Source: an uncultured Blautia sp. (GTDB lineage: Bacteria > Bacillota > Clostridia > Lachnospirales > Lachnospiraceae). Taken from it: a stretch of 47,994 bases of DNA. The stretch spans positions 1 through 47,994 of the forward strand of contig CAMOQF010000005.1 in the NCBI GenBank assembly GCA_946622645.1. Direction: 5' to 3'. Made by a program: the position numbers and the translations under genes. Positions 5,692 to 22,719 of the stretch are shown here, piece by piece; the first letter of the stretch is position 1, and every line of letters begins with the position of its first letter. The notes under the pieces were generated by a model. The model was given only the letters and a program-made list of their open reading frames with translations, searched no databases and was not told the origin of the DNA.

Positions 5692-7292
5692 TAAACCTCC
5701 TCCGGACCGTCGTCCGTTTCTATTTCTGTATGAATGTTCTGAAAAGCCTGTTCTATGGTCACGGGTGAAAGCGTCTTTTCCCGCAGGTTTTCTTCCAGCA
5801 CAAAGCGGATCTCGGGCGAGAGGCCCGTTTCACGCTGAATGATCTGTAAAAGAGATTCCTTCCACTCCGGATTTTCCACGTACATTTCCGCCGTGAGGTC
5901 CGGAAAGATCACGTACAGGATACCGTCTGCACTCTCCGGATCATAGCGGATGGAAGCGTTGCGGAGGACGACCAGAAAACCGCCTGTGGTATAGCCGATC
6001 AGCCTGTGCCAGTCGCCTGCGATCTGCTGCAGTTCCTGCGGAGCGGGACGTTTTGGGGCGGCAGGCGGCTCCTCTTTCGCTTCTGAGAGTTCTTCGGCGC
6101 GGCGCGTCCCGGATGACGGTACGGCAGCCGCGGGAGGCGCTTCATCCATCCTTTTTTCCAGCAGCCGGATCCGGTCCAGGACAGAGCCGAGATCTGTCTC
6201 CATGGAAGGCCGGCACAGCTTGATCAGCGCCACTTCCGTAAGGACTCTTTTCTGGGAGGACAGGCGCATCTGGCCGGAGAGCTCGGAGAGGACGCGGATA
6301 TACCGCATCAGGGTTTCCGGAGATACACTGCGGCTTTCCTCCTCAAGAAGCCTGCGGTTTTCGGAGGACAGGTCGATCACGTCCCCTGCGTCATCGGACG
6401 ACGCCAGCAGGAGGAGCGACCGCAGATACCAGATAAAATCCGAGACAAACTGGCCCAGTTCTCTTCCGCCGATGATCATCTCCTCCAGGATGGAGATGCT
6501 GCCGGATACATTCCCGGAAAGGATGCAGCGCAGCAGCCGGCTGTATACCGAGATGTCCGCCGCGCCGAGCACGTCCAGCACCTTGTCGTAGGTCAGGGTT
6601 TCTCCCAGATAAAAGGCTATGCACTGATCCAGAAGGCTCACCGCATCACGCATGGAACCGTCGCCGGCTCTTGCGATGTAGCGTACGGCCTTTTCCTCCG
6701 CCCGGACGCCCTCCTCTTCCAGAAGGTGCTGCAGACGGGCGGCGATGGTATCCACCGGGATCCGGCGGAAGTCATATCGCTGGCAGCGGGACAGGATGGT
6801 CACCGGGATCTTGTGCGCTTCCGTGGTGGCCAGGATAAAGATCACATATTCCGGCGGCTCCTCCAGCGTTTTCAGGAGCGCGTTGAAAGCGCCCGTGGAA
6901 AGCATGTGGACTTCGTCGATGATGTAGACCTTGTACCGCCCCTGGGTGGGCCGGTAAGCAACTTCCTCCCGGATCTCGCGGATATTGTCCACGCCGTTGT
7001 TGGAAGCCGCGTCGATCTCGATCACATTCAGGGAAGCGCCGGAGAGGATCTCCCGGCAGGTCCTGCACTGGTTGCACGGGCTTCCGTCCCGTGGGGATTC
7101 ACAGTTGACCGCTCTGGCAAATATCTTGGCCACGGATGTTTTGCCGGTCCCGCGGGTCCCGCAGAACAGGTAGGCGTGGCCGATCCGGTCCGCTTTCAGC
7201 TGATTGGTGAGGGTGGTCACGATGTGATCCTGCCCTTTCACATCCTCAAACCGGTCCGGTCTGAATTTTCTGTACAGAGCAATGTAGCTCAT
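5688..7292 (-). CDS. dnaX: DNA polymerase III subunit gamma/tau
   Basis: The 534-residue clamp-loader ATPase contains the Walker A segment [10 protein letters not shown] (about 44-53), a four-Cys zinc module (C64...CNQCRTC), Walker B IIDEVH and the sensor/arginine-finger segment [10 protein letters not shown] collar domain follows, then a variable Ala/Pro/Glu-rich linker and a C-terminal domain. It assembles the polymerase III holoenzyme and loads beta clamps. No A-rich slippery run is visible in the linker, so a programmed-frameshift gamma form is not indicated. The ribosome site AAGGAGAAAG precedes ATG 7292. No promoter is visible between pfkA and dnaX. Confidence 0.96.
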
Positions 7293-13487: not shown

Positions 13488-14696
13488 TCAGTACAGATAA
13501 TCCCTGTTGACATAGCCGTATTTGCCAAGAGCAGGCGCATAGACATACCAGTACTGGCTGTCGCTCGTATCCTGCAGCTGAACGGTATATCCGCTGTAGA
13601 GCTTGCCGATCTCGTTGGAAGGATCATAGGCTTTGGCAGAGCGAAGCGCGAGATAGCCTTCCGACACATAAACCGTCCTTGTATTTCCGCCGGAAGTATT
13701 GCCGTTCGGTCCTACCAGATAGTCTTTGTTGACATAGCCGTATTTGCCGAGTGACGGAGCATAGACATACCAGTACTGAGAGCCGGTTCTTTCCTGCAGG
13801 CGGACGGTTTCGCCGCTGTAGAGCCTGCCGATCTCGTTGGAAGGATCATAAGCCATGGCGGAGCGAAGCGCAAGATAACCGGTAGCCACGCTCACCTGGT
13901 AGCTGGCTCCGTCCGCGGACTCGCCTCCGCTTACATAGATCAGATAGTCTTTGTTGACATAGCCGGATCTGCCCAGTGAAGGAGCATAGACATACCAGTA
14001 CTGGGAGCCGGTCTTTTCCTGCAGCTCTACGGTATCTCCGCTGTAAAGCTTTCCGATCTCATTGGAGGGATCATAAGCCATGGCGGAACGAAGGGCAAGA
14101 TAACCGGTAGCCACGCTCACCCGGTAGGTTGCTCTGCCTGATGAAGCAGCTGCTGCAGGAGCGGGGGAATTGTTTGCGCCGCTGATGTAATACAGATAAT
14201 CTTTGTTGACATAGCCGTATTTGCCGAGTGAGGGAGCATAGACATACCAGTACTGGCTGTCAGCGGTATCCTGCACCTCTACTCTGTCGCCGTTATAGAG
14301 TTTTCCGATCTCGTTGCGGCTGTCATAGGCTTTGGCTGTGCGGAGAGCCAGATAGCCTCTGGCGACGGTCACTCCATAGATCAGGGAGCTGTCTGCTACC
14401 AGATAATCCTTATTGACATAGCCGTACATGCCAAGCTTGGGCGCATAGCCGTACCAGTACTGAGAATCGCCGGCATCCGTAACGTCAAACGCGTCGCCGG
14501 TATAGAGTTTGCCGATCTCATTGCGGCTGTCATAGGCCTTCGCTGTACGGAGGGCAAGATAACCGCTTTCGACCCGGACGTGATATCTGGTGGACGCTTC
14601 TGCCGTTCTGACGCCGAGATCCGTCACGATGGACAGGGAAAAGAACAGGGCAAAGACCGCCATCAGACAGATTAGTTTCTTTACCGTTTTTTTCAT
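13488..14696 (-). CDS. Secreted protein with five bacterial SH3-like repeats
   Basis: The 402-residue protein has a signal peptide (KK, then a hydrophobic core to about residue 28, AEA cleavage region). Five repeats of about 62 residues follow, each with the cores GYLALR(S/T)A, NEIG(K/R)LY and SQYWY(V/G)YAP...GYVN(K/R)DYL. They begin near 38, 106, 194, 263 and 337. Repeats 3 and 4 are the most alike. There is no enzymatic domain, so it is probably a cell-wall-binding or matrix protein. SH3b domains generally bind peptidoglycan. A near-consensus LexA-type box lies at the start of its transcript. The ribosome site AAAGGAGGG precedes ATG 14696. Confidence 0.88.
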   Translation of the reverse strand: MKKTVKKLICLMAVFALFFSLSIVTDLGVRTAEASTRYHVRVESGYLALRTAKAYDSRNEIGKLYTGDAFDVTDAGDSQYWYGYAPKLGMYGYVNKDYLVADSSLIYGVTVARGYLALRTAKAYDSRNEIGKLYNGDRVEVQDTADSQYWYVYAPSLGKYGYVNKDYLYYISGANNSPAPAAAASSGRATYRVSVATGYLALRSAMAYDPSNEIGKLYSGDTVELQEKTGSQYWYVYAPSLGRSGYVNKDYLIYVSGGESADGASYQVSVATGYLALRSAMAYDPSNEIGRLYSGETVRLQERTGSQYWYVYAPSLGKYGYVNKDYLVGPNGNTSGGNTRTVYVSEGYLALRSAKAYDPSNEIGKLYSGYTVQLQDTSDSQYWYVYAPALGKYGYVNRDYLY

Positions 14697-14823: not shown

Positions 14824-14899
14824 GGAATAGAAAAATCCAAACGCAGCAGTGTTTTTGTGGCACTTTTCCACAAGAATACACTCTTACAGGAGGAAAGTT

Positions 14900-15541
14900 A
14901 TGGAAGATTATATCAAGCTTACATCTCAAAGACATCCGGAAGTGATCCTTCGCGTGATCCCGGGGCATTTTGCCACGCCCAACTCCCATATCAATTATTA
15001 TATGGACATGGCCGCTCTGAAATCCCGTACCACAGAGTCCAGGGCTGCCGCAAAAGCTTTGTCAGAGTTTTACTACAGCTCCACCGTGGTGGACACCATC
15101 GTCTGCCTGGACGGCACGGAGGTGGTCGGAGCCTACCTGGCGGAAGAGCTTTCCCACGCAGGCGTCATTTCCATGAACCGTCATAAATCCATCTATGTTC
15201 TCTCTCCGGAATACAACATGACCGGACAGATGATGTTCCGCGACAACCTCCAGCTGTGGATCAACGGCAAGAACGTGCTGATCCTGCTCGCGAGCGCGAC
15301 CACCGGCAAGTCTCTTGCCCAGGCAACCGAATCCCTGATCTATTACGGAGCCAAGGTGACCGGCATCGCTTCGCTGTTCTCGGTGGTATCCAAAGTGATG
15401 GGCGTCCCGGTGCAGTCTTTGTTTACGCCGGCAGACCTTCCTGCCTACCAGTCCTACTCTCATGAAGACTGTCCGCTCTGCAGAAGCGGCGTCCGGGTCG
15501 ATGCTCTTTGCAACGGCTACGGCTACACTCCCATCGGATAA
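14900..15541 (+). CDS. Phosphoribosyltransferase-like protein lacking the PRPP acidic pair
   Basis: The 213-residue protein starts at ATG 14900 behind AGGAGGAAAG; a longer in-frame form from 14849 has no such site. The fold resembles orotate phosphoribosyltransferase: an N-terminal Arg/His-rich segment, DTIVCLDGTEVVGAYLAEEL (flexible-loop side) and VLILLASATTGKS at 126-138 where PRPP-binding enzymes have two acidic residues before the (S/T)TG loop. Here these are Ala-Ser, so normal catalysis is doubtful. A Cys pair (CPLC) occurs near the C terminus. The gene is 13 nt from the amidase fusion gene and is probably cotranscribed with it. It may be a regulatory or binding protein; the function is not known. 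Confidence 0.7.
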   Translation: MEDYIKLTSQRHPEVILRVIPGHFATPNSHINYYMDMAALKSRTTESRAAAKALSEFYYSSTVVDTIVCLDGTEVVGAYLAEELSHAGVISMNRHKSIYVLSPEYNMTGQMMFRDNLQLWINGKNVLILLASATTGKSLAQATESLIYYGAKVTGIASLFSVVSKVMGVPVQSLFTPADLPAYQSYSHEDCPLCRSGVRVDALCNGYGYTPIG

Positions 15542-15554
15542 GGAGGCATTATTT

Positions 15555-17213
15555 TTGAAGTGTAAAAGAGTTTTTCTCTCTGTTCTCTCTGTCATGCTGA
15601 TACTGGCGTCCGGATGCCATGCAGTATCGGCAGAATCACCCGAAAGTCCCGAACCGGCTCCGCAGTCCGAATTCGCTCTCAAAATCCTGATCGACCCCGG
15701 TCATCAGGGCTCCAACGTCGACATGAGCGCGCCGGAGCCGAACGGCCCGGGTTCCTCCGTGACTAAAGCAAAAGCTACGACCGGAGCCGCGGGCGACTAC
15801 ACCAGGGTCCCGGAATACCAGCTGAATCTGGATATCTCCCTCATGCTGCGCGATGAGCTGACCGCGCGGGGGTACGAAGTTTTTATGACCCGCACGGATA
15901 ACGACACGGCCATCAGCAACAAGGAGCGCGCCGAGATGGCTTCCGCCGTCCAGGCCGACATTTTTGTACGGATCCACGCCAACAGTTCAACGGATCATTC
16001 TGTGTCAGGCGCCTGTACCATGGCTCCTTCGCCTTCCAATCCGTACGTCTCGCATCTGTCTCCGGAGTCCGAGCGTCTGTCCCGCAGCATTCTGGATGCG
16101 TACTGCGCCGCGACAGGCTTTGGCAGCCAGGGCGTCATCTTTGCGGACGACATGACCGGCATCAACTGGAGCTCCGTCCCCGTCACCATCCTGGAGATGG
16201 GCTACATGAGCAACGAGTCCGACGACAACCGCATGAATGATCCCGCGGTCCGCCTCCAGATGGTGCAGGGGATCGCCAACGGCATCGACGCTTATTTCGG
16301 GATCGAACGAAGCACCGGAGGAAGTGAAGAAGAAGTGGATATCGAATCAACCGCGAACGTTTTTGCGGAACAGAACTCGGTTCCCGCATCAGACGAAAGC
16401 CTGTCTGACCAAGGTATGCTTTCACCTCCTTCAGGGTCGGACGACAGCGCTTTTGCCGGCAATGCTTCGGATGAAAGGATCACGGAAGTGCTGCAGCAGG
16501 TGCAGTCTCATCTTCCCCAGGGGAACGGAAACTGGTCTGTGTACGTCTGCAATCTGACCAACGACACGGCCGATTCCATCAACAATGCTCCCATGCAGGC
16601 CGCGAGCCTGATCAAGCTGTTTATCATGGGCGCGGTGTACGAACGGTACGACGCCCTTGCCTCCGTGTACGGGGCAGCCGCACTGGACGCGAACCTTTCT
16701 CCCATGATCACCGTCAGCGACAATACAGCCGCCAACACTCTGGTTTCTTATCTGGGCGGAGGCGATGCCACCGCCGGGATGAACGTTGTCAATCAGTTCT
16801 GCAGAGACCACGGCTATGGCTCCACCTCGATGGGACGCCTTCTGCTGGCAAGCAACGCGAACGGCGACAACTACACCTCGGTGGAAGACTGCGGTCGTTT
16901 CCTGAAGGAGATCTACGACGCCTGCTCCGGTCTTACCGACCGGTCCAGCCTCTCGCATACTTCGGAAATGTTCGCTCTGCTGCAGCAGCAGACCCGCCGG
17001 CACAAGATCCCGGCCCAGATACCGGCCGGCGTCTCCGTCGCCAACAAGACCGGCGAACTCGACGATGTGGAAAACGACGCCGCGATCATCTTCAACACCG
17101 GCAACACCGATCTGGTGATCGTGTTCATGTCGGAAAACCTGAACAACGTCGGAGCCGCTCAGGCGTCCATTTCCGCTCTTGCTTACAGTATATACTATTT
17201 CTATAACGGCTGA
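15555..17213 (+). CDS. Lipoprotein fusing N-acetylmuramoyl-L-alanine amidase and a class A beta-lactamase-like serine hydrolase
   Basis: TTG 15555 is chosen because AGGAGG lies 8 nt upstream and it gives a signal peptide ending in LASGC, a lipobox with Cys21; the total is 552 residues. Residues 42-250 are an Amidase_3 domain with all zinc/catalytic positions visible: DPGH50, E87, H141 and E214. After a Ser/Glu/Asp-rich linker (252-305), residues 310-552 are a class A beta-lactamase-like domain with SLIK (351-354), SDN (388-390) and KTG (498-500). I see no Glu166-like residue, so peptidase or esterase activity is more likely than beta-lactam hydrolysis. Both halves act on the cell wall from outside the membrane. 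The terminator at 17239 closes the unit. Confidence 0.88.
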   Translation: MKCKRVFLSVLSVMLILASGCHAVSAESPESPEPAPQSEFALKILIDPGHQGSNVDMSAPEPNGPGSSVTKAKATTGAAGDYTRVPEYQLNLDISLMLRDELTARGYEVFMTRTDNDTAISNKERAEMASAVQADIFVRIHANSSTDHSVSGACTMAPSPSNPYVSHLSPESERLSRSILDAYCAATGFGSQGVIFADDMTGINWSSVPVTILEMGYMSNESDDNRMNDPAVRLQMVQGIANGIDAYFGIERSTGGSEEEVDIESTANVFAEQNSVPASDESLSDQGMLSPPSGSDDSAFAGNASDERITEVLQQVQSHLPQGNGNWSVYVCNLTNDTADSINNAPMQAASLIKLFIMGAVYERYDALASVYGAAALDANLSPMITVSDNTAANTLVSYLGGGDATAGMNVVNQFCRDHGYGSTSMGRLLLASNANGDNYTSVEDCGRFLKEIYDACSGLTDRSSLSHTSEMFALLQQQTRRHKIPAQIPAGVSVANKTGELDDVENDAAIIFNTGNTDLVIVFMSENLNNVGAAQASISALAYSIYYFYNG

Positions 17214-17232: not shown

Positions 17233-17268
17233 AAAAAAGGAGATGTCTTTTCGGACATCTCCTTTTTA
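17233..17268. terminator. Bidirectional terminator between the amidase fusion and metallopeptidase genes
   Basis: GGAGATGTC (17239-17247) pairs with GACATCTCC (17254-17262) around a 6-nt loop, flanked by six A's on the left and five T's on the right. It serves both converging genes. Confidence 0.9.
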
Positions 17269-19072: not shown

Positions 19073-20284
19073 CTACGCTTCTTCGTAGGATTTTTCCCAG
19101 ATCTCCGAGAAGACCGCCATGGGGCAGTCCGTCAGCAGGCACATCAGAATAAAGCATTCGTAGGGATTTACAATGTAGATCTCACCCATTTTGCAGCGGC
19201 TTAAGATCCCCTGGATCTCGTTCAGGAAGGTCTTGTACCGCTCATAGGGATCCTCCTCGTCTCCCTGGGAGATGATAAAAAATTCCAGGGTGATCAGATC
19301 GAATCTCTCCACCGGAAATTTGTGGTTCAGGATGTTGGTGATCCGCTGGCGGCTGAAGCGCTTCTGGCTGAAATGCCTGGCGAGCGTCGAGGCCGACATC
19401 TTCTTCAGGTTGCCCATGTTGTTGATGGGAATGCCGCTGCAGATGACTTTCTCCACATCCGAGGGTGTGATCTGTTCCGCCGTCCAGATCCGGTCTCCCT
19501 TCCATTCGTCTTCATCCGCCTGATACAGCCCGGCGATGATCCCGCGGGTCTTCTGATACAGGGCGAGGAACTCCTGAAAGGCCTGGCTCTTTTCGGAAAG
19601 GGGATCCTCCGTAAAGACCTTCAGATGCATGAGCCAGTCCATCAGCTGCTCTTCGGTGTCCAGGGCCGGCTGCCCTGCGGGATGATCCTTCCGGATGCCT
19701 GTCTCATCGGGCGCAGCAGCGAGAAATCTTTCTTTGATCTCCTGTGCCTTTGTATAGCCCAGTCTGTTTGTATAGCAGAACCAGAAGATCGCTTCGTCCG
19801 GATTGTTAAAATCAAAATCCGGTTCTTTCAACACGCGGGTCAGAAAATCGCTCACATCTTCCACGGTCATCCGAAGGCCGAAGCCGAGCAGAAATACGGT
19901 CTCCCGCTTAACGGAAGCCTGGCTCAGCCAGTTGGAAGCGAGGGAGGAGAGCTTGGTGGAAGTCGGCGTCATGGATTTGGGGGTGCAGGTCTCCCGGAAG
20001 GAATCGATCATGATCTCACGGTAAAGCTCCTGCGGCACCTCGGGGAAGGGTTCGGTGAGGCCCGCCCGTTCGTAGATGTATCTTTTCAGATAGTCGCCGA
20101 AAGAGACAAGCTCCATCTCTTTGTAGAGATAGTTAAAGATGGTTTCGGCATCCTCATCCTCAAACTCTTCGAGGCTCACCACCTCGCGGAAGCGGCGGGC
20201 GGCTTTTCTGGTAAATTCATAATCCTGGATCGGTTCGATGTTTTCGGCCTGTTCAAAATCCAGGTCCTGCATACTGTTTCGCAT
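19073..20284 (-). CDS. Uncharacterised helical protein in the kinase/phosphatase operon
   Basis: The 403-residue protein has no signal peptide or membrane helix and no motif I can name. It is rich in helices, Asp/Glu and aromatic residues. A conserved-looking core RETVFLLGFGLRMTVEDVSDFLTRVL is followed by NNPDEAIFWFCYTNRLGY and, later, SASTLARHFSQKRFSRQRITNIL, which resembles a helix-turn-helix-like segment. It lies 9 nt after the PP2C gene and 20 nt before the metallopeptidase gene, so it probably belongs to the same signalling module. A role as a kinase substrate or adaptor is only a guess. The ribosome site GGAGAG precedes ATG 20284. Confidence 0.7.
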   Translation of the reverse strand: MRNSMQDLDFEQAENIEPIQDYEFTRKAARRFREVVSLEEFEDEDAETIFNYLYKEMELVSFGDYLKRYIYERAGLTEPFPEVPQELYREIMIDSFRETCTPKSMTPTSTKLSSLASNWLSQASVKRETVFLLGFGLRMTVEDVSDFLTRVLKEPDFDFNNPDEAIFWFCYTNRLGYTKAQEIKERFLAAAPDETGIRKDHPAGQPALDTEEQLMDWLMHLKVFTEDPLSEKSQAFQEFLALYQKTRGIIAGLYQADEDEWKGDRIWTAEQITPSDVEKVICSGIPINNMGNLKKMSASTLARHFSQKRFSRQRITNILNHKFPVERFDLITLEFFIISQGDEEDPYERYKTFLNEIQGILSRCKMGEIYIVNPYECFILMCLLTDCPMAVFSEIWEKSYEEA

Positions 20285-20293
20285 ACTCTCTCC

Positions 20294-21061
20294 TTACCGG
20301 GCCACACGCCCCAGCCAGATCGTCGTGTTATCGCGTCCGCCATGATCAAGCGCCATGGAAAGAAGCCTTTCCACGGCTTTCTCCGGTTCCGTCTCCTCGG
20401 AGAGCACCTTCTCGATGGACCGGTCGTCCACCATGTCGGTCAGACCGTCTGTGCACAGAAGGATCTGAAGGCCGTCCTGGACACGGACAGATTCTATTGT
20501 CGGGTCCGGCGTCATCCCTTCGGAGTCCTCCATGCCAAGATACTGGACAAGCGGCGCTTTTCCTATGGAAGAAAAGCGAAGCACATGATCCTTCGACACC
20601 TGCCGGAAGCCGGAAGGTTCCTTCAGATAGATGCGGCTGTCTCCCAGGTTAGCCAGATGGACTGCCTTCCTGGTAAAGAAAGCGCACACCATGGTGCTGC
20701 CCATGGATTCGATCCGGTTTTCCCTTCCATAGCCGGTCACCCTGTCGTTCATCGCAAGACAAAGCTCCCGGAGATAGCGTTCCCAGTCGAAAAAGAACCA
20801 TCCCGGCGGATGTTCCCGCAGATATGCGCCAAAGGAGACAGCGCCGAGGTACGAAGCGGTCTCTCCGCAGCTTTCGCCGCCCATTCCGTCCAGAACGGCC
20901 GCGCCGCAGGAACCTTTCCCGCGCAGTTTTCCGGTCACGATCCCTTCTGAGCCGTTGTTCTGTTCCGGAAGGAAATGCCCGTCGCACCAGAAATTGTCTT
21001 CATTGTTCTTTCGCACCTTCCCGATGTGGGATGTGTATGCGTAATCGATGTTATATGTCAT
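20294..21061 (-). CDS. PP2C-family protein phosphatase
   Basis: From ATG 21061 the protein has 255 residues; an in-frame GTG at 21073 overlaps the GTGAGG ribosome site and is not chosen. PP2C motifs are visible: IGKVRKNNEDNFW near the N terminus, LDGMGGESCGE (metal site), NLGDSRIYL, VSKDHV, LLCTDGLTDMV and GGRDNTT(I)W. It dephosphorylates Ser/Thr residues with two Mn/Mg ions and is expected to oppose the adjacent kinase. It lies 23 nt after the kinase gene. It appears soluble and cytoplasmic. Confidence 0.93.
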   Translation of the reverse strand: MTYNIDYAYTSHIGKVRKNNEDNFWCDGHFLPEQNNGSEGIVTGKLRGKGSCGAAVLDGMGGESCGETASYLGAVSFGAYLREHPPGWFFFDWERYLRELCLAMNDRVTGYGRENRIESMGSTMVCAFFTRKAVHLANLGDSRIYLKEPSGFRQVSKDHVLRFSSIGKAPLVQYLGMEDSEGMTPDPTIESVRVQDGLQILLCTDGLTDMVDDRSIEKVLSEETEPEKAVERLLSMALDHGGRDNTTIWLGRVAR

Positions 21062-21084
21062 CTCAAGCCTCACAGTATGGTTTG

Positions 21085-22689
21085 TCAGGTCTCCATCTGG
21101 ACGATGGATCTGCGCCAGTATTTGTCACCCCGTTCTTCATATTCCGGATCGTCGTATTCTTCATCGTGAACGCTGCCCTCTTTGTCGATCCAGCGGATCA
21201 GCATACCGTCGCGGTAGTAATACAGCTCTTCCTCTTCGCCCTTCCAGATATAGGCAAAGAAAAGGCTGCCGTTCCAGTAATAGTATTCTTCGTTGACGCC
21301 TTCCTCAGAGAGGGCCGGATAGACCATCACTTTGCGGAGCTGACCGTCTTTGTCATAGTATTTGACGCGTTCCCCTTCGGTCCCGATCGTATCGTAGCCG
21401 GGCAGCTCCTCCACGATGGTGGTGACGCGCTCGCTGATCAGATCCATCGAGGTGGCAAAGTCCAGGCTGGCCGTTTCTTCCGAGACTTCGCTGCGGTCCT
21501 GGATCGAAGAGATCATGCGCTCCGTCTGTTCACGCACGGTATCCTCCACCATCCTTTTCAGGAAATATCCGACGCCGGCGCCGACAAGCACGATCACCGC
21601 CAGGAATGCAGCCGCCCAGGGCACCGCCTGGCGGAAGCGTGAAGAGGTTTCATTTTTTTTGTGATCTTTGTCCTGATTTCCGTCTGAAACGCCGTCCGAC
21701 CCGGAGTCTGTTCCGGATGTCTCTTCTTGCACGCCGGACGGTTCGGGAATGATCTCAGCCGGCTTTCCGGTCAGGATCCTCTGCTGCACCTTTTCCAGAT
21801 CCGCAAGCATTTCGCCGGGAGTCCGGTAGCGTTCGGCCGGGGAATAGGCGCAGGCTTTGAGGATCACATAGGAAAGATCCTCCCCCGCGTCCGCGCTCGG
21901 CGGCAGGGCTTCGCCCGACATTCTGCGCACCAGAGCGTTTTCTTTGTCCTTGTAGGTGATCAGCTGCTTGTCCAGACTGATGAACGGGAGCCGGTTCTGG
22001 TTGGTCAGGCGGTACATGACAAGGCCCAGGGCATAGATGTCCACCTGGTTCGTGCAGGGCTCTCCGTGGTACATTTCCGGCGCCATGTAGGAGCTTGTCC
22101 CCTTTTTGGAAAGGCCGCCGATGGTTTTTTCGATCTCGCGGGCGATGCCGAAATCTCCCAGTTTAAAGTCACCGAAACGGGAGACGAAGATGTTCTCCGG
22201 TTTGATGTCCCTGTGTATGATGTGGAGCCTGCTGCAGTAAATGAGGGCGCGGCACAGATCGCAGCCGAGCTTGACGGTCTTTTCTTCATCAAAGCTGTTT
22301 TCGGTCAGGTATTCCTGAAAGCTTTCCAGGAATTCCATGCGGATGTAGATTTCCCATCCGATCTCATCCAGGTACTCGGTGACCTTGTAGTCTTCGACGG
22401 CGACCACGTAGGAATTTCCGCGGAAATTTTCCATGGTGCTGATCTCGCGCAGGCACTCTTCCATCACGTTTTCAAAATACCTGCGGGCGTCCTCTTCGCT
22501 GCCTGTCTCGGCAAGGACACTGCTGAGTTCTTCGCGGCTCTCCGGAATAGTGATGATCTTGATGGCCGAATAGAAGGAATGGCCTTTTACGGTCCGTTCC
22601 GCTTTATAGACGCGGCCATAGGCGCCTTCGCCGGCTTTGCTGATGATGTTCCATTCCGGCCAAGGGCTCATGGGAAGCTCCCGATCCAT
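21085..22689 (-). CDS. Membrane Ser/Thr protein kinase without PASTA domains
   Basis: The start at 22689 lies 7 nt after AGGGGG; 534 residues. The N-terminal kinase domain has the Gly loop GEGAYGRVY (about 20-28), a catalytic Lys in AIKI, HRDIKPEN at about 159-166, DFG at about 179-181 and a GTSSYMAPE activation segment. A Ser/Asp/Gly-rich linker leads to one membrane helix (about 356-377). The roughly 155-residue outer domain has repeated Tyr/Glu/Trp-rich strands (YYYWNGSLFF, YYYRDGMLIRW), not PASTA repeats. It probably senses something outside the cell, but the ligand is unknown. The PP2C gene is directly downstream. Confidence 0.93.
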   Translation of the reverse strand: MDRELPMSPWPEWNIISKAGEGAYGRVYKAERTVKGHSFYSAIKIITIPESREELSSVLAETGSEEDARRYFENVMEECLREISTMENFRGNSYVVAVEDYKVTEYLDEIGWEIYIRMEFLESFQEYLTENSFDEEKTVKLGCDLCRALIYCSRLHIIHRDIKPENIFVSRFGDFKLGDFGIAREIEKTIGGLSKKGTSSYMAPEMYHGEPCTNQVDIYALGLVMYRLTNQNRLPFISLDKQLITYKDKENALVRRMSGEALPPSADAGEDLSYVILKACAYSPAERYRTPGEMLADLEKVQQRILTGKPAEIIPEPSGVQEETSGTDSGSDGVSDGNQDKDHKKNETSSRFRQAVPWAAAFLAVIVLVGAGVGYFLKRMVEDTVREQTERMISSIQDRSEVSEETASLDFATSMDLISERVTTIVEELPGYDTIGTEGERVKYYDKDGQLRKVMVYPALSEEGVNEEYYYWNGSLFFAYIWKGEEEELYYYRDGMLIRWIDKEGSVHDEEYDDPEYEERGDKYWRRSIVQMET

Positions 22690-22719
22690 GTACACACCCC
22701 CTTTCTATACTTTTTTTGT

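Follow-up and report, generated by a model that had tools for sequence, protein, structure and literature searches.

Why a cell-wall amidase and a domain of the penicillin-binding fold should share one polypeptide, and what they do there, is the question raised by a gene at 15555..17213 (forward strand) in an uncultured Blautia sp. of the Lachnospiraceae (assembly GCA_946622645.1, contig CAMOQF010000005.1, positions 1 to 47,994; this whole stretch of 47,994 nucleotides is called the window). The gene reads from a TTG start through 552 codons and a stop; its product is considered, with moderate confidence, to be an exported two-headed wall hydrolase in which a stem-peptide amidase is joined to a DD-peptidase-like enzyme, and which would have come from a fused gene pair. 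Both folds are known; here an Amidase_3 domain and a class A β-lactamase fold lacking Glu166 occur in one chain. Publications on this pair were not found among titles or the openings of abstracts, a search that left subscription literature mostly uncovered.

The fused gene and its two domains

The frame at 15555..17213 is intact and free of internal stops, by open reading frame (ORF) reading and by translation. The initial annotation had proposed a single frame from TTG 15555, supported by a Shine-Dalgarno sequence and holding the active-site residues of both halves, and this is borne out; the 552 codons run uninterrupted, every motif is found, and the ribosome-binding site AAGGAGG (15540..15546, +; sequence reading) stands 8 nucleotides ahead of the start and shares bases with the TAA that ends the upstream gene. 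The closest relative found, locus L053 (CAMOUV010000023.1, an uncultured Blautia, also numbered G085), shares the fusion, the TTG start and the order of genes; its AAGGAGG and TTG (5867-5883) are likewise arranged, with 7 nucleotides between.

The Amidase_3 domain (PF01520) spans residues 44-245 (15684..16289, +) and is seen in the Pfam search (3.5e-36; 125.3 bits against a curated cut-off of 27), in the structure model and in the motif residues; H50, E87, H141 and E214 are all present in the alignment, and, by the known roles in the family and the labels of the initial annotation, would be the zinc ligands His, Glu and His and the catalytic Glu. The NCBIfam model amidase_Rv3717 matches at 4.2e-26 with 91.8 bits, under its curated cut-off of 335. 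Comparison of the whole structure model gives the Rv3717/Ami1 amidase (PDB 4lq6, 4m6g, 7agl) as best match; the Amidase_3 fold is common to both, whereas the β-lactamase-fold half is absent from those structures. A polar linker follows at residues 250-305 (16302..16469, +; predicted structure and hydropathy). It is mostly predicted to be disordered, with model confidence (pLDDT) below 50 at residues 255-287 and 294-303, and the hydropathy test finds no hydrophobic segment in it (maximum mean -0.06).

Residues 306-552 (16470..17210, +) are placed in the class A β-lactamase/PBP-A fold by both domain search and structure model, as the initial annotation had anticipated, with profile alignment in agreement; the Pfam match is to Beta-lactamase2 (PF13354; 2.9e-33, best stretch residues 382-524). 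Alignment locates the nucleophile motif S351-L-I-K354 (16605..16616, +), S388-D-N390 (16716..16724, +) and K498-T-G500 (17046..17054, +), which had rightly been described as following a polar linker. The reported absence of a Glu166-type residue also stands: the position holds Leu430 (16842..16844, +), which matches Leu158 of PBP-A by sequence and profile alignment, and Glu occurs in none of the 89 alignment rows that have a residue there. The fold, the motifs and the non-Glu omega position all match those of PBP-A.

The signal peptide region (residues 1-26; 15555..15632, +) is recognized by a hydrophobic stretch, by LASGC at residues 17-21 and by AVSA before residue 27. LASGC fits the PROSITE lipobox pattern; five residues past it lies an Ala-x-Ala site of signal peptidase I type (AVSA-ES, by eye). 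In L053 a Pro precedes the corresponding Cys and the lipobox is not matched, while a signal peptidase I-type SVQA-EE is present (by eye). The pattern is found in one (L088) of the 15 fused ORFs in the 80 loci introduced below, L058 being cut at its N-terminus; outside the genus but within the family, the fused proteins L188, L191 and L192 read by eye as having lipobox-like strings (LLAGC, GITGC and LISGC). Of the two-headed, membrane-tethered lipoprotein first envisaged, both domains are in place and the LASGC string is real, but the lipobox reading is ambiguous and a lipid anchor no more than possible; the window protein may be either a lipoprotein or a signal peptidase I product.

Fused and separate forms among relatives

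One scan of GTDB contigs provided 80 loci (L numbers), mostly named Blautia or Lachnospiraceae, 15 of which have a fused ORF. A set of 64 genomes (G numbers) from the genus, presumably Blautia, with the window's included, was searched at E<=1e-45 for the second domain and E<=1e-60 for the amidase; the former is found in 59 genomes and the latter in 43, the five genomes with no second-domain match being drafts of 72-89% completeness. ORFs read in the 43 amidase genomes are tandem but separate in 24, fused in 13, divergent and separate in four, and lack a second domain in the stretch covered in two (G019 and G081, the latter near a contig end). G002 carries an additional fusion, its amidase too degenerate for E<=1e-60, which brings the total to 14; G036 (L122) and the genome of L128 have fusions with a more distant Amidase_3, and the genus counts, which come mainly from the genomes with an amidase match, are a minimum. 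In a family sample of 250 genomes under 250 genera, the second domain (E<=1e-40) is present in 21, including the window's; the 20 loci read comprise five fusions (L188, L190, L191, L192, L196), four tandem pairs and 11 without an amidase. The first four of these fusions retain all four amidase residues (HEHE), SxxK and KTG, L191 having SSN; L196 shows SxxK, SDN and KTG in the C-terminal part read.

A rule that the amidase is always accompanied by the second domain is weakly borne out. Each of the 43 amidase genomes of the genus has it in some form, 42 at the cut-off, and G026 has one copy that is fused and degenerate and another that stands alone and is cut; G046, outside the genus, is the counter-example, its amidase (51% identical) lying in 16 kb of sequence where the second domain is not seen.

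The separate state is represented by Blautia luti (L067), B. wexlerae (L093), B. massiliensis (L092) and Faecalimonas umbilicata (L127), whose paired genes are homologous to the two halves; unlike the window protein, each product has its own N-terminal hydrophobic segment. The three Blautia pairs are 58-65% identical to the window and adjoin the same block that lies downstream of the fusion on the opposite strand (19073..22695, -; Pfam and locus comparison), a convergent set that adjoins rpoC and comprises an unknown gene, a PP2C phosphatase and a Ser/Thr kinase; this conserved block likely marks the locus as the orthologue of the relatives' tandem pair. Its unknown gene encodes 403 amino acids with no Pfam or NCBIfam match at 0.01, and has a homologue in 30 of the 80 loci. 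Two further arrangements were noted: the distant fusions of L122 (5782-8262) and L128 (5956-7941), which sit between rpoC and that unknown gene, have acidic repeats, 322 and 161 residues long, as the linker between Amidase_3 and the same second domain, and L126 and L130 have one amidase gene flanked by two β-lactamase-fold genes, all co-directional.

By a simple hydropathy test, an N-terminal hydrophobic segment is present in all 37 separate amidase ORFs of the 80 loci and in 69 of their 73 separate second-domain ORFs. Since the window linker lacks such a segment and yet retains, in alignment, the GxLSPPSG stretch found ahead of the second domain in relatives, the fusion probably involved loss of both the stop codon and the second anchor; its source, judged from the sequences compared, would be the two genes that stand in tandem, unjoined, in most amidase genomes of the genus. 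Several relatives have both genes in one frame with one stop between them, an arrangement resembling readthrough (by eye). Readthrough was rejected because the second frame contains a Met of its own with a hydrophobic segment after it, and these are taken, by eye, to be two genes; the early notion of fusion in most relatives was likewise dropped when ORF reading placed a stop between the two genes. The window and L053 pair in the second-domain trees (support 100/100 and, in the wider tree, 99) and in the wider amidase tree (99/80), the pairing being unresolved in the first amidase tree. The fused state needs seven changes on each second-domain tree, at least five of them forced by well-supported branches, and six on the amidase trees, with at least three and at least four forced; gain and loss of fusion cannot be distinguished on these trees.

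Two activities or an enzyme with a partner

Once exported, the window protein would act as a two-headed peptidoglycan hydrolase. The zinc amidase half would cut the bond between MurNAc and L-Ala, and the β-lactamase-fold half, keeping the acylation residues without the Glu166 used for β-lactam hydrolysis, would be a PBP-A-like DD-carboxypeptidase or endopeptidase working at the D-Ala end of the same stems. With neighbouring amidase and serine-hydrolase genes fused, the second membrane anchor gone and a polar linker left, a covalent link may replace the association of two membrane proteins and hold both activities together. PMC11189452 describes PBP-A as confined to cyanobacteria, with measured DD-carboxypeptidase and DD-endopeptidase activities that prefer amidated stems; the domain here differs in being fused to an amidase and in occurring in Lachnospiraceae, and is known from sequence and model. 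LRA-5 (PDB 8eo5), a class A-like protein from a soil metagenome that also lacks Glu166, differs in that its structure stands alone, with no amidase domain.

Several points weigh against a second active enzyme of this kind. Identity to PBP-A is 24%, and in the structural list LRA-5 and PBP-A are only slightly ahead of true β-lactamases (6v4w at 28.9, TLA-3 at 28.3; rows within 1 Z are tied). Equivalence to Glu166 is by sequence alignment, and Glu is found at the neighbouring position 429 in four alignment rows, each a degenerate fusion, as well as in the fusions G073 and G029, whose sites are intact; fold and motifs cannot separate a DD-peptidase from other serine hydrolases. Dual catalysis is also not always kept, as fusions of sister lineages now lack catalytic residues in either the first or the second half. 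Both sites are intact in six of the 14 genus fusions (the window, G085, G025, G083 with SSN for SDN, G073 and G029); seven have a broken second site with HEHE kept, six of them through Ser351 to Gly (G074, G026, G011, G075, G076, G063) and G033 through loss of SDN, with KTG not seen and Ser and Lys retained. G002 is the reverse case, having lost H50, E87 and H141 with the second site intact.

Three other explanations have to be set beside a dual hydrolase. Joining of two genes by an assembly or sequencing artefact is conceivable for a 2.5-Mb draft genome of 186 contigs, and many relatives do have two genes; it was nonetheless rejected and is hardly credible, given that L053 comes from another genome, with halves 68% and 77% identical, and shows the same single ORF, that more fused ORFs occur in L054, L055 and L056, and that a simple stop-codon error would not remove the second gene's hydrophobic segment from the linker. 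No frameshift between the halves, which would have undone the initial annotation, is indicated. Its suggestion that the protein senses or binds β-lactams, extended here to hydrolysis and protection, draws on the class A fold with SxxK, SDN and KTG and is regarded as very improbable. A β-lactamase was rejected as the principal function for want of Glu166 and because the NCBIfam class A model, at 50.7 bits, does not reach its cut-off of 200. Sensing fares no better: the Pfam search finds no signalling domain in the fused protein, and none of the nine neighbouring proteins scanned is BlaR/BlaI-like, although genes for the Ser/Thr kinase and the PP2C phosphatase are found downstream. The occurrence of the domain in nearly all genomes of the genus fits a housekeeping gene. 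In PMC3855789, Bifidobacterium strains with putative β-lactamases, many annotated as PF13354, are sensitive to β-lactams and give no nitrocefin signal. A DD-peptidase-like active site might bind β-lactams incidentally; PF13354 matches in gut genomes should not count as β-lactam resistance.

A stronger, if still rather unlikely, alternative is that the second half is mainly a non-catalytic partner, which turns the amidase on or directs it by contact with it or by binding stems that end in D-Ala, the window's remaining catalytic residues being secondary or on their way out. It is favoured by the seven fusions with a dead second site beside an intact amidase, and by the rates at which these domains evolve, estimated as nonsynonymous-to-synonymous ratios (dN/dS) by a simple Nei-Gojobori method at 0.27-0.71 synonymous differences per site, partly near saturation. 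The dead domains give 0.074 (G011/G075), 0.181 (G076/G063) and 0.214 (G033/G026, 155 columns), the amidases of the same pairs 0.028, 0.054 and 0.060, neighbouring stand-alone copies 0.063, 0.085 and 0.121, and an intact fused pair 0.078; in each of the three pairs the dead domain, though constrained, changes more quickly than the amidase. A divergent stand-alone copy beside the fusion is readable through KTG and intact in five of six cases, the sixth being cut by a contig end with SxxK and SDN intact. Partners are also required by other Amidase_3 enzymes, according to PMC8496864: GerS assists CwlD, ActH serves LytH, and EnvC, NlpD and ActS serve AmiA-C. Against a mere partner stand the six fusions, the window's among them, in which both sites look intact, the zinc-site loss in G002, the partnerless amidase of G046, and L113, a stand-alone copy at the locus of G010 that is degenerate too, so that loss is not tied to fusion. 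The divergent amidases of the same kind in G012, G020, G009 and G007, which have no fused domain, complicate any simple story. A dual hydrolase remains the favoured account of the window protein; since degeneration runs both ways and the dead domains are constrained, its second domain may also serve the amidase non-catalytically, and the losses on either side hint, at the level of sequence, at joint action of the two halves.

Neighbouring genes and wider meaning

The upstream gene (14849..15541, +; the ORF as listed, its true start perhaps further in) resembles orotate phosphoribosyltransferases and has an 82% identical neighbour in L053; it has no Pfam match at 0.01 and weak pyrE matches, with pyrE_Therm at 8.6e-08 under the curated cut-off. 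Its stop lies 13 nucleotides before the fusion TTG, and the two genes are possibly co-transcribed. Downstream of the fusion, a terminator-like hairpin GGAGATGTC/GACATCTCC followed by a T run (17239..17267, +) was read by eye only and is not among the hits of the computed scan. The gene order shared by the window and L053 is DnaJ, DUF4428, SH3-repeat protein, phosphoribosyltransferase, fusion, M3-type peptidase, unknown gene, PP2C, kinase and rpoC. The SH3-repeat protein (13488-14696, -) has bacterial SH3 repeats (PF08239) and a signal-like N-terminus, with a homologue near β-lactamase-fold genes at 22 of the 80 loci; it is a possible third member of the system. The window's own genome also encodes, on contig C97 (L002, 1486-3105), a second β-lactamase-fold protein of 539 amino acids (PF13354, 1e-36) with SASIIK, SDN and KTG; these motifs are preceded by aromatic and glycine-rich repeats resembling cell-wall-binding repeats, and the gene adjoins a glutamine-synthetase-like ORF (both by eye).

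The amidase partners known to us (GerS, ActH, EnvC/NlpD) are separate proteins. CwlD-GerS, LytH-ActH and EnvC/NlpD-Ami resemble the present pair in combining an Amidase_3 enzyme with a second protein; among those second proteins GerS is a lipoprotein, ActH spans the membrane and the others are LytM-fold proteins, none being of β-lactamase fold. Some are inactive enzymes, and the abstracts of PMC10336132 and PMC10268282 describe catalytically inactive LytM proteins as assisting other autolysins. The occurrence of the two domains in one chain or as neighbours, with site loss on either side, would connect removal of stem peptides to D-Ala trimming in common gut bacteria. More broadly, and tentatively, the Lachnospiraceae β-lactamase/DD-peptidase-fold domain may recognize D-Ala-ended stems for Amidase_3, or activate it, with repeated fusions and with either half able to become a selected pseudo-enzyme. 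If the second domain does control the amidase, partner-activated amidases would extend to the penicillin-binding fold, adding a new kind of amidase regulator alongside the degenerate LytM activators and offering a testable case of pseudo-enzyme evolution; penicillin occupying the second domain might then alter control of the amidase.
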